A stretch of 64,000 nucleotides of DNA from Methyloglobulus sp. GTDB taxonomy: Bacteria; Pseudomonadota; Gammaproteobacteria; Methylococcales; Methylomonadaceae. The stretch spans positions 1-64,000 of the forward strand of contig JABFQX010000056.1 in NCBI GenBank assembly GCA_013141505.1. Reading direction: 5' to 3'. This document shows positions 59,882-64,000 of this stretch, one piece after another; position 1 is the stretch's first letter; each line of letters opens with the position of its first letter. A program made the translations under genes and the position numbers. The notes below the pieces were generated by a model that saw nothing but the letters and a program-made list of their open reading frames with translations, was not told the DNA's origin and searched no databases.

Positions 59882-61858
59882 ATGAAGCATTACAAAAGCA
59901 TAAGTATTTTTAGACGGACTGTTTTGACGGTCTTAATTTCATCAATGTTTTTCGGATTGGTTTTGGCCAACAGCGAAGTTGAAAAACTGACCGAAAACCC
60001 CGCAAACTGGGCGACGTGGGGCGGCAATTATGCCGCCACGCGCTACAGTACACTGGCGCAAATCAACGCCGATAACGTCAGTAAACTGACACCTGCGTGG
60101 ACATTTTCCACCGGTGTGTTGCGAGGGCATGAAGGTGGGCCGTTGGTTGTCAACGACATTATCTACATCCACACGCCGTTCCCCAACACGGTTTATGCAT
60201 TAGACCAGAAAAGCCACTCTGTGATTTGGGAGTACACGCCCACGCAAGATGCTGATGTCACCTTATCCGTCATGTGCTGCGATGCCGTCAACCGTGGCTT
60301 GGCTTATGGCGACGGTAAAATCTTCTTACAGCAAAATGATACGGTATTGACTGCGCTAGATGCCAAAACCGGCAAGCGAATTTGGAGCGTGCAAAACGGC
60401 GACCCTAAATTGGGTATGACCAACACCAATGCGCCGCTGGTGGTGAAAGACAATGTTATTACCGGTATTTCCGGTAGTGATTATGGTGTGCGCGGTTTCC
60501 TGGTAGCCTACAACATCAAAACGGGCAAGATGGCTTGGAAAGGTTATAGCATAGGGGAGGATAACGACATACTTATCGATCCCAATAAAACCACGACGTG
60601 GCTAGACGGCAAAATGTAGCCGGTGGGGACAAACACAGGTATCAAATCATGGCAAAACAATCGTTGGCAGATAGGCGGTGGTACGACGTGGGGTTGGTAC
60701 AGCTACGACCCGAAACTTAACCTGATCTATTACGGCTCAGGTAATCCGGTCTCCTTTAACCCAATGACACGGCCTGGCGACAACAAATGGACGAATGCCT
60801 TATGGGCGCGTGATGCTGATACTGGCGTGGTGAAGTGGGTTTATCAAATGACCCCGCATGACGAATGGGGTTTCGATGGGGTGAATGAATCCGTACTCAT
60901 AGATCAAGATATTCAAGGCAAGCCACGAAAAACGCTGGTGCATTTTGACCATAACGGCTTTACTTATGTGTTGGACAGAGAAACAGGGGAATTGCTTAAG
61001 GCCGATAAGTTTGACCAATCGGTTAACTGGGCGAGTCACATTGATTTAAAAACAGGTCGTCCGCAAGTTGATCTTAAGTACAGCACCGCACATCACGGTG
61101 AAGAGGTTAACACTCACGGTATCTGCCCAAGCCTTGTTGGCGCAAAGGGGCAACAACCCGTAACTTATTCCCCACAAACCAGACTTTTTTACGTGTCAGG
61201 GGTTCATTTGTGCCAAGACTTAGAGCCTTATGCCACTGAGAAACACATTACTGGCCAGCCCTACATAGATACCACCATAAGCTTAAGGCCGAACAGTAAA
61301 GATGCAATGACTGGCCTGATTGATGAAGACACTATCTCAGAAGCAAACGATTATTTAGGTAATTTGGGTCAATTAACGGCTTTCGATGCTAAAACCGGAA
61401 AAATTGCTTGGTCTAACAAAGAGCGTTTTATGGTTGGTTCGGGTGCTCTTTCCACGGCGGGCGGGCTGGTTTTTTATGGTACGTCAGAAGGCTATTTTAA
61501 AGTGCTTGATGCCAAATCAGGGAAGGAGTTATACCAGTTCAAAACGCCATCCGGCATCGTCGGTAACATTAATACGTGGAGCTTTAACGGCAAGCAATAT
61601 CTAGGAGTATTGTCAGGCATTGGTGGTTGGGCGGCGACTGCAATTCCCAGTCCACTCGAAGAAAAAGACAAGAAATTCGAAAAAGATTTAAGAATGAAGA
61701 TAGATGCTGAAAAAGACCCTGCCAAAAAAGCTGAACGTGAAGAAAAGTTCCAGAGCTGGCTTCGAGAATGTTCTGCTAATAGAGGAGAGTATCATTCACC
61801 TTTAGGCAAAACTACCAAAGTCGGCGGCACTTTTACGGTATTTGCACTGCCTGATTAA
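59882..61858 (+). pseudogene. XoxF-like PQQ methanol dehydrogenase, interrupted by an amber codon
   Basis: The frame from ATG 59882 (AAGGAGG just upstream) to 61858 has 658 codons. It starts with a signal peptide ([13 protein letters not shown]) and shows the quinoprotein features: the paired cysteines in [32 protein letters not shown], and [17 protein letters not shown]. Codon 246 (60617-60619) is TAG where CAG is expected (K-M-stop-P-V-G). After HDEW the catalytic Asp is Gly330, while the lanthanide-type Asp332 two residues later is kept ([11 protein letters not shown]). The cofactor-metal Glu is Asp (GSDYGVRG). A Lys/Glu-rich helix of ~45 residues is inserted near the C-terminus. All this argues for a decaying or altered enzyme. 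Confidence 0.85.
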
Positions 61859-61865
61859 ACTAAAA

Positions 61866-61925
61866 AATCAAACTTAATCCGACAGTTTCTGGCTTGCGCC
61901 ACAAAACATCGGGTTAAGTTTGATT
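61866..61925. terminator. Long inverted repeat after the xoxF-like gene
   Basis: A 17-bp stem (61866-61882/61909-61925, one mismatch) with a 26-nt loop begins 7 bp after the stop codon. It may end the transcript or bound the repeat array that follows. No T-run lies directly behind it. Confidence 0.5.
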
Positions 61926-61937
61926 CTGCATTTATTG

Positions 61938-62180
61938 ATAACGGCTTACTAGATGACACCGCATGATGAATGCAAACTAACCAAAACCTAATGCTATCAA
62001 ATGACACCACATGACGAGTAGGGCAGGGTATCGGCAAGGCGTAAGCAGTGCCATTTACCAAATGACACCGTGTGATGAATGGAATTAAGTACAAAGTTTA
62101 ACAGCTATAAAATGACCCCTCATGACGAGTGGAATAGCGGTACAAAAAGTAAATATGCTTACAATTTAAAAAATTACTTC
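61938..62180 (+). repeat. Array 1 of xoxF active-site fragments (4 clear copies)
   Basis: The short core YQMTPHDEW (DNA TATCAAATGACNCCNCATGA) recurs with its ATG at 61953, 62001, 62062 and 62112, spaced 48, 61 and 50 bp. In the xoxF-like gene the same core has its ATG at 60848. The copies read MTPHDEC, MTPHDE-stop, MTPCDEW and MTPHDEW. The spacing is not a multiple of 3, and stops follow, so the array is not translated as one protein. The 61-bp spacer resembles the codons just before the core (DTGxxKW). A decayed fifth copy may lie near 62173. The rest of the gap to 62387 has nothing else. Confidence 0.8.
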
Positions 62181-62387: not shown

Positions 62388-63038
62388 ATGAAATACATTT
62401 TTGCATTATGCGCGACTTTAACCACGCTATTGAGCCTATTGCCAGTCGCACAGGCAGACGGTTTCCACGATGACCGATGGTATATCTCCGTTTTTGGTTC
62501 ATACCTTGGCGCAGACAGCCATCGTGGTGGGGATGGCGGCGGCGGTGGCATGGGCATCGGTAAAATACTCAACGATCATTTCAATATTGAGCTAAGAGGT
62601 TTTGGCGGCTTATTAGGTGCCAGCTACATTGATACCGCTGCCGTAGGCCACAAAAGTTGTAATCAAGGCAGTAGTTTTACCAGCCTTGGTACAACCTCAT
62701 GTACAACTGATGATGGCAACCGTAAAGACTTGACCATTGGCGGCGGCATGGTGGATCTGCAATATTACTTTACCCGCGATACCTTCTCGCCTTACGCCGT
62801 CATTAGTGCAGGCATCATGAACACGGATAAATACGTCGGCAATGTCAGTGCCTTGGGCTTTGTCGGGGAAGCTGGCGCTGGTTTAAATTACGCATTGACG
62901 GATAACTTTTTTCTCCGCAGCGACATCCGCTATCGCTATAACAATAATTTCGGTCGCCAACTCCTATCAGGGACGGACGAATACCATGACTTTACCGTGA
63001 ATTTTGGCCTTGTTTATGTGTTTGGTGACAAGCACTAA
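62388..63038 (+). CDS. Outer-membrane beta-barrel protein
   Basis: The ATG at 62388, after GAGGA, gives 216 residues; an earlier ATG adds 7 residues and is less likely. A signal peptide (LLSLLPVAQA-D) precedes alternating strands. The N-terminal mature part has a Gly-rich loop (GGDGGGGGMGIGK), and the end is FTVNFGLVYVFGDKH. Size and pattern fit an 8-stranded OmpA-type barrel, related in style but not closely to the tandem pair at 3724-5226. It lies between the two xoxF-fragment arrays. Confidence 0.8.
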   Translation: MKYIFALCATLTTLLSLLPVAQADGFHDDRWYISVFGSYLGADSHRGGDGGGGGMGIGKILNDHFNIELRGFGGLLGASYIDTAAVGHKSCNQGSSFTSLGTTSCTTDDGNRKDLTIGGGMVDLQYYFTRDTFSPYAVISAGIMNTDKYVGNVSALGFVGEAGAGLNYALTDNFFLRSDIRYRYNNNFGRQLLSGTDEYHDFTVNFGLVYVFGDKH

Positions 63039-63113: not shown

Positions 63114-63596
63114 ATGAACAGAATTATTTCAACGATATTATTTTTATCGTCAATCTTACTTTTGGGCTGTGCTGATAGTTTTAAGCGTGAAAATATCGGC
63201 GGCAAGATGTATGAAACGAATTACACCCACTCATCAGATGGTAATGTGACACAAGCCATTAGACGTGAAAACGGTGATATTGAGAAACGTACATATAGTT
63301 CTGATAAAACACTGATTTCAGTCACTGTTGATTATAGCAATGGCGATACTGGTATTTATGAAATAGTAAATGGCAAACGTACTAAGCGGACAGTTGAAAC
63401 CACTGAATATACCGAAGTGACTGATTTAGATTCAGAGGGAAATGAAGTTTCCGGTGAAATAAGATACGCTAATGGGGATATTGGCAAAATTGAATTTGAA
63501 AATGGTAAGCCAGTAAGAGAAACAATTACCTACACCGATGGATATGTAAAATCATATGATTATGATTCAGACGGCAACTTAGATGCTGTAAGGTGA
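63114..63596 (+). CDS. Lipoprotein with repeated N-G-D strands
   Basis: The 160-residue protein has a lipoprotein signal peptide (LFLSSILLLGC). The mature part repeats a short strand-turn unit: ENGDIEKRTY, SNGDTGIYEIVNGK, ANGDIGKIEFENGK, TDGYVKSYDY. This resembles MORN- or YD-type repeats that form a long beta-sheet. AGGGGAAACGA precedes the ATG. Function is unknown. It and the barrel gene are the only genes between the two repeat arrays. Confidence 0.75.
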   Translation: MNRIISTILFLSSILLLGCADSFKRENIGGKMYETNYTHSSDGNVTQAIRRENGDIEKRTYSSDKTLISVTVDYSNGDTGIYEIVNGKRTKRTVETTEYTEVTDLDSEGNEVSGEIRYANGDIGKIEFENGKPVRETITYTDGYVKSYDYDSDGNLDAVR

Positions 63597-63814
63597 AATA
63601 GTACCGCGTCCGGAGGATAAAACCCACCATCCGTAAGGCATAGTTAGCCGCGCAATGTCATTGAACCTAAACGACCACCGACATTACCGCGCGGCGCTTA
63701 TGCCCCATGAATAAACCCCTCGCATGGTTTCCCGATAATCATCAGGAATAGACAAGTTTATGGGTTGCTCAGGATACACCTATAATGATGGTAAAATTTT
63801 GTTCAGCAAAACAA
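63597..63814. other. Short gene-free spacer
   Basis: No gene, promoter or palindrome is supported in this part. It leads into the second repeat array. Confidence 0.4.
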
Positions 63815-64000
63815 GGTCGTTTTGACTGTGTTGTAGCTAATGCTGAAGTCCAGATACCGGCAAAGTCAAATGGTTTACCAAATGACCCCGCAAGACGAAT
63901 AAGATCTCAAACCATAATCGTACATTATCAAATGACTCCTTATGACGAGTGTGCTCTAGAATTGGTAAGGCATAAAGCAGGATGGCTTATCAAATGACAC
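63815..64000 (+). repeat. Array 2 of xoxF active-site fragments (3 clear copies, runs off the window)
   Basis: Core ATGs lie at 63882, 63932 and 63994, spaced 50 and 62 bp; the last is cut by the window edge. The first has the longest match: 63853-63902 encodes DTGKVKW-(V)YQMTPQDE with one base missing. It differs from the local xoxF-like gene by V to K and by synonymous changes. A decayed copy may lie near 63821. A frame at 63785-63997 crosses the cores but is not credible as a gene. Confidence 0.8.

Follow-up and report, generated by a model that had tools for sequence, protein, structure and literature searches.

Does a 50-bp piece of methanol dehydrogenase coding sequence, stranded at 63853-63902 in a 64,000-nucleotide stretch of Methyloglobulus DNA (the whole stretch analysed, hereafter the window), point to a donor other than the xoxF-like gene that lies beside it, or can it be accounted for by what has happened locally? 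The proposal that it is xoxF-derived with a 1-base deletion, made in a sequence-only reading of the window, was borne out. The codons for DTGKVKW are present at 63853-63873 on the forward strand (GATACCGGCAAAGTCAAATGG), whether judged by the sequence itself, by profile or by blastn; they are followed by TT where GTT is expected, one base being missing at 63873-63875, and then by TACCAAATGACCCCGCAAGACGAA TAA (63876-63902, forward strand), which is YQMTPQDE and a stop. The whole reads as DTGKVKW, one base lost, VYQMTPQDE, stop. With respect to the 15 letters originally read, the peptide and the deletion stand, and the gap placed at H/Q is really a Q codon (CAA). A whole-genome blastn search with the intact xoxF returned 63853-63908 at 81% over 56 nt (E=3.4e-6), and a nucleotide profile built from 30 xoxF genes matched 63851-63904 in the 64-kb window (E=3.3e-8), the only other strong match in that search being the adjacent paralogue and the weaker ones being sister units of the kind described below. 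The fragment is homologous to xoxF nt 926-980, in the expected place and on the expected strand. No open reading frame crosses it, given the base missing at 63873-63875 and the TAA at 63900-63902, and it is not a functional xoxF gene. Just upstream, likewise on the forward strand and in the order expected from xoxF, 63779-63840 is a tentative further relic corresponding to xoxF nt 413-476, most xoxF genes aligning there at nt about 420-476. The match is marginal by profile (E=0.2 when 2.7 kb were searched) and by local alignment, with scores from 20.5 (local gene) to 23 against 20.0 for the best of 200 shuffles, and it may come from the decayed gene that also gave rise to the fragment.

One intact xoxF is present in the genome (G000:C11:6087-7940) and its motif is DTGEVKW. 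The full-length paralogue adjacent to the fragment (59882-61858, forward strand, with Pfam PQQ matches in its C-terminal part) has DTGVVKW, and a third methanol dehydrogenase, on contig C41, is distant, at 39% identity over the aligned part. The comparison with all methanol dehydrogenase genes of the genome that had been suggested as a check has now been made, and neither xoxF carries DTGKVKW. An outside donor or simple drift from the local gene had been expected to gain in likelihood if no xoxF of the strain or its relatives had that motif; the congener G004 has it, at locus L044. The adjacent paralogue is 67% identical in amino acids to the intact xoxF and forms a long branch, with 67% identity to xoxF genes that share about 87-94% mutually. 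Its in-frame TAG (60617-60619) means either that the gene became a pseudogene recently or that a base was miscalled. Within it the codons for YQMTPHDEW (60842-60868, forward strand) are the segment that the units discussed below copy; the local sequence is GATACTGGCGTGGTGAAGTGGGTTTATCAAATGACCCCGCATGACGAATGG, ending at 60868, and its third bases do differ from those of the fragment, as was noted at the outset.

Is the fragment then nearer to a typical functional XoxF than to its neighbor? That assertion holds for the 5' half and fails for the 3' half: against the intact xoxF and the local gene, respectively, the 5' 21 nt have 2 and 6 differences and the 3' 27 nt have 5 and 2. Over the 48 bases the genes of five relatives are level at 6 differences, with the intact xoxF at 7 and the local gene at 8. 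The source may have been another or a lost xoxF, 48 bases being too few to fix a donor. Given the long branch of the local gene, a fragment that parted from it before that gene's own changes would look just this 'typical', and common ancestry suffices for the differences between the fragment and a neighboring paralogue that is diverging fast and has an in-frame TAG. We infer that the donor was a xoxF of this lineage, either ancestral or lost; a donor distinct from the adjacent gene's ancestor is possible, though the data do not call for one. A distinct DTGKVKW-type xoxF, lost or foreign, as source of a fragment inserted separately from the sister units described below would draw on the motif in the congener and on the closeness of the 5' half to the intact xoxF; it has against it the opposite leaning of the 3' half, the long branch of the local gene and the company that the fragment keeps, and we consider it quite improbable.

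That company consists of seven sister sequences. The 3' part of the fragment is unit 5 of eight copies of one XoxF codon stretch, 25-nt units with the consensus TAY-MAA-ATG-ACN-CCN-NNN-GAY-GAR (codons Y-Q-M-T-P-H-D-E), all on the forward strand where they lie in the window. In block A they are TAC TAG ATG ACA CCG CAT GAT GAA TGC (unit 1, start 61947, 61947-61973), TAT CAA ATG ACA CCA CAT GAC GAG TAG (unit 2, start 61995, 61995-62021), TAC CAA ATG ACA CCG TGT GAT GAA TGG (unit 3, start 62056, 62056-62082) and TAT AAA ATG ACC CCT CAT GAC GAG TGG (unit 4, start 62106, 62106-62132). In block B they are TAC CAA ATG ACC CCG CAA GAC GAA TAA (unit 5, start 63876, 63876-63902), TAT CAA ATG ACT CCT TAT GAC GAG TGT (unit 6, start 63926, 63926-63952), TAT CAA ATG ACA CCG CAT GAT GAA TGA (unit 7, start 63988, 63988-64000 and on to contig position 64014 beyond the window) and unit 8 (start 64038), which is outside the window at contig 64038-64064. 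Seven occurrences of the unit pattern with at most two mismatches were observed in the window versus 0.08 expected. Spacing is 48/61/50 bp in block A and 50/62/50 bp in block B; the units share no common reading frame, and a single frameshifted protein across the array was rejected on these spacings.

Blocks A and B can be aligned over 197 bp with 72% identity (E=3e-22), so that one is a copy of the other. The units alternate between two types, GAA/CCG in the odd ones and GAG with CCA or CCT in the even ones, and therefore pairs have also been duplicated; units 4 and 8 have an odd AAA codon in common. Of the 8 units, 6 no longer have the Trp codon that follows the conserved stretch. Unit 5 is in register with the three other units of block B and with block A, and so has a history in common with them, which speaks against a separately inserted piece. 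The other seven units, together with the duplication of the blocks, show that most of the history is one of local duplication and not of separate donation. On our best reading, the fragment belongs to an array that derives from xoxF and was duplicated locally, and it is the unit that has been preserved best; on the evidence of homology and arrangement an xoxF origin with local duplication is very probable indeed.

What has become of the units since the blocks parted is less straightforward. Between A and B, 4 of 64 sites differ at codon positions 1 and 2 of the units, 11 of 32 at position 3 and 40 of 100 in the spacers (positions 1 and 2 vs spacers, p=6e-7; position 3 vs spacers, p=0.68; positions 1 and 2 vs position 3, p=7e-4), with no indels within units and three gapped columns in the spacers, and pS and pN for the units are 0.63 and 0.05. 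Parsimony applied to the eight units together puts 15 of 20 changes at position 3 (p=1.7e-4). At two-fold sites there are transitions only (47:0 pairwise) and at four-fold sites transversions prevail (10:27 pairwise), though such pairwise counts are not independent. The differences between the A and B units are few, 15 in one genome, and recognition of the units by their likeness to xoxF brings some bias towards the conserved first and second positions. The equal rates over codon positions and spacers that neutral pseudogene debris predicts are not what this small sample displays, and a codon-like constraint on the units, by selection or by re-templating, is likely.

Need there be any constraint at all? 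A tandemly duplicated scrap of xoxF pseudogene in neutral drift, its codon signature owed to chance and recognition bias, would fit with the decaying paralogue and its in-frame stop next door, with the 1-base deletion and stops in the units and with the confinement to one genome, and the binomial test on the A/B differences alone gives p=0.0018, which is modest for a choice made post hoc. Nevertheless, an indel-free unit survives at all 8 of the 8 array positions while the spacers differ by 40%, the contrast of positions 1 and 2 with the spacers is strong and two-fold sites have transitions only, and relatives' xoxF genes are without comparable debris nearby. Because changes concentrate at position 3 and in the spacers, neutral debris is disfavored, albeit on few sites of one genome and with some recognition bias; we regard it as unlikely, though it deserves to be taken seriously.

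Constraint could alternatively be supplied from outside the units. Units that have no function of their own might be refreshed again and again from functional xoxF genes, by gene conversion over short tracts or by xoxF DNA that enters the cell; of the possibilities considered this is the version closest to the earlier outside-donor idea. It would yield the genetic-code signature directly, with spacers, which are without a donor, left to drift, and 22-nt cores do match third bases of relatives' real xoxF genes (unit 7 with G013, unit 4 with G007 and unit 8 with G043). Against this, about 256 synonymous versions and many genomes make exact matches of short cores expected, no unit is identical to the intact xoxF or the adjacent paralogue, the Trp codon has gone unrefreshed, which a pure form of the model would not lead one to expect, and tracts of 25 nt are short for RecA-dependent conversion. 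Refreshment of this sort seems to us rather improbable. The xoxF origin of the array is well supported; the reason for its conservation is not.

Among 311 genomes of the order the array is absent from every other one; a single double-unit match there, in G035, lies inside an ordinary coding gene and was dismissed. A double-unit search of 237 genomes of the family gave nothing other than unrelated sequence, and viral contigs and plasmids gave zero matches to the array. With nothing similar in the family, order, viral and plasmid sets, a mobile or widespread repeat is rejected. Nor did the xoxF profile turn up stray pieces of xoxF when 265 kb of sequence flanking the xoxF and OMP genes of relatives were searched, and no description of xoxF fragment arrays was found in the open-licence literature. 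Two Bacteroidota matches in GTDB contigs are chance, due to decamer repeats of the ATGACGCCCA type; ATGAC-type decamer arrays (ATGACGCCCA, ATGACGAATA) are present in the Bacteroidota MAG KLAP56 at L049 4400-4600 and L050 5960-6150, both apparently intergenic. Repeats of TTCGAAATGACACC on contig C61 were rejected as kin of the array, being a different palindromic intergenic repeat: at the end of that contig (L062 5031-5741) the repeats are intergenic, measure about 208 bp, combine TTCGAAATGACACC units with palindromic GAGAAATCTTAA...TTAAGATTTCTC and run up to the contig end.

Between the stop codon of the paralogue and array A there is a long hairpin (61866-61925, forward strand; RNA fold and self-inverted match) of -28.8 kcal/mol, z -6.8, that has no T-run; contig C67 contains a weak partial match to it of 40 bp (124517-124556). 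Downstream of array A is an outer-membrane beta-barrel gene (62388-63038, forward strand; Pfam OMP_b-brl, E=9.7e-10), followed by a small lipoprotein-like ORF (63114-63596, forward strand) with no Pfam match. Outside the window, a sodium:solute symporter gene (contig C19 64099-65538; L017 5100-6539) begins about 35 nt beyond the end of block B, and the arrays are oriented as their downstream genes. A comparable match to the symporter gene (E<=1e-60) was present in 1 of 60 other relatives searched, in another family and at 43% identity; the gene was possibly acquired horizontally. By eye there is no Shine-Dalgarno-like sequence or ribosome-binding site upstream of the eight unit ATGs. The array has no conserved RNA fold (fold z-scores 1.0, -0.6 and -1.7, with a weak alignment fold) and zero Rfam matches, and a structured RNA element was rejected on these two counts.

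Could a protein be what reads the units? Homing endonucleases that target conserved codons tolerate wobble-position changes of the host gene (PMC3943268), and units kept as decoys or operators for a DNA-binding protein of such tolerance would suit the transport genes downstream of both arrays. Nothing in the data points to such an enzyme, though, selection of arrays of targets lacks any explanation, and strict Y/R at two-fold sites fits the genetic code better than it fits protein-DNA contacts; we find it very hard to credit.

The history that we favor can be put as follows. A xoxF copy of this lineage would have decayed beside the surviving paralogue to a scrap of the W-motif (DTGKVKW) plus YQMTPHDE; the scrap would have multiplied in tandem, giving the odd and even unit types and then pairs, and the four-unit block would then have been copied 1.9 kb away, after which codon-like constraint would have held the units while the spacers drifted. 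The arrays might now be cis elements in the leaders of the outer-membrane-barrel and symporter genes, and there the units might perhaps be read as codons, as Met-Thr-Pro-His-Asp-Glu mini-ORFs. Taken whole, as a locally duplicated array from a decayed xoxF, under codon-like constraint and with a cis role, the explanation is one towards which we lean on sequence grounds. A cis role in the two leaders is the favored reading of mechanism, held with low confidence, and any particular functional mechanism is at best unlikely; this step draws on one genome, with no orthologous array for comparison. That the eight copies of active-site codons, outside any full gene, are a pseudogene-derived cis element, read as codons or re-templated and tying xoxF sequence to neighboring genes, is a thought we would entertain without much conviction.

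Scraps of bacterial pseudogenes are expected to disappear fast and with disregard for codons. Here a catalytic gene has left one short segment in eight copies, which have diverged as though they were still read as protein. Should sister strains agree, it would be a pseudogene fragment turned repeated functional element or a case of very-short-tract gene conversion in bacteria, both of them testable within one organism, and the codon-like conservation is worth that strain comparison. Should it not be confirmed, the lesson would be that fragments of conserved motifs easily suggest outside donors where local duplication suffices.

How does the array stand beside systems already familiar? Pseudogene remnants and partial tandem gene duplications likewise leave short pieces of gene by a paralogue, with frameshift and stops, but here a single 25-50-nt segment is involved, eight times over, at regular spacing, in two copied blocks and with divergence biased to third positions. 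Silent gene-cassette arrays, the pilS-like stores for conversion, also keep partial variant gene copies beside a related gene; the present units are far shorter than known cassettes, and what they span is a catalytic motif that hardly varies and in which changes would be harmful. Elements of ~25-29 nt at ~50-62-nt intervals bring CRISPR arrays to mind, yet these repeats are diverged and match the cell's own gene, and the intervening sequences are common to both blocks; with unit identity down to 69-72% of the reference copy and spacers homologous between blocks, a CRISPR array was rejected. Operator or leader repeats that precede transport genes also have conserved boxes and looser spacers, as do these two arrays, each in one orientation before its gene; the difference is that here the boxes originate in the coding sequence of xoxF and their variation is that of codons.
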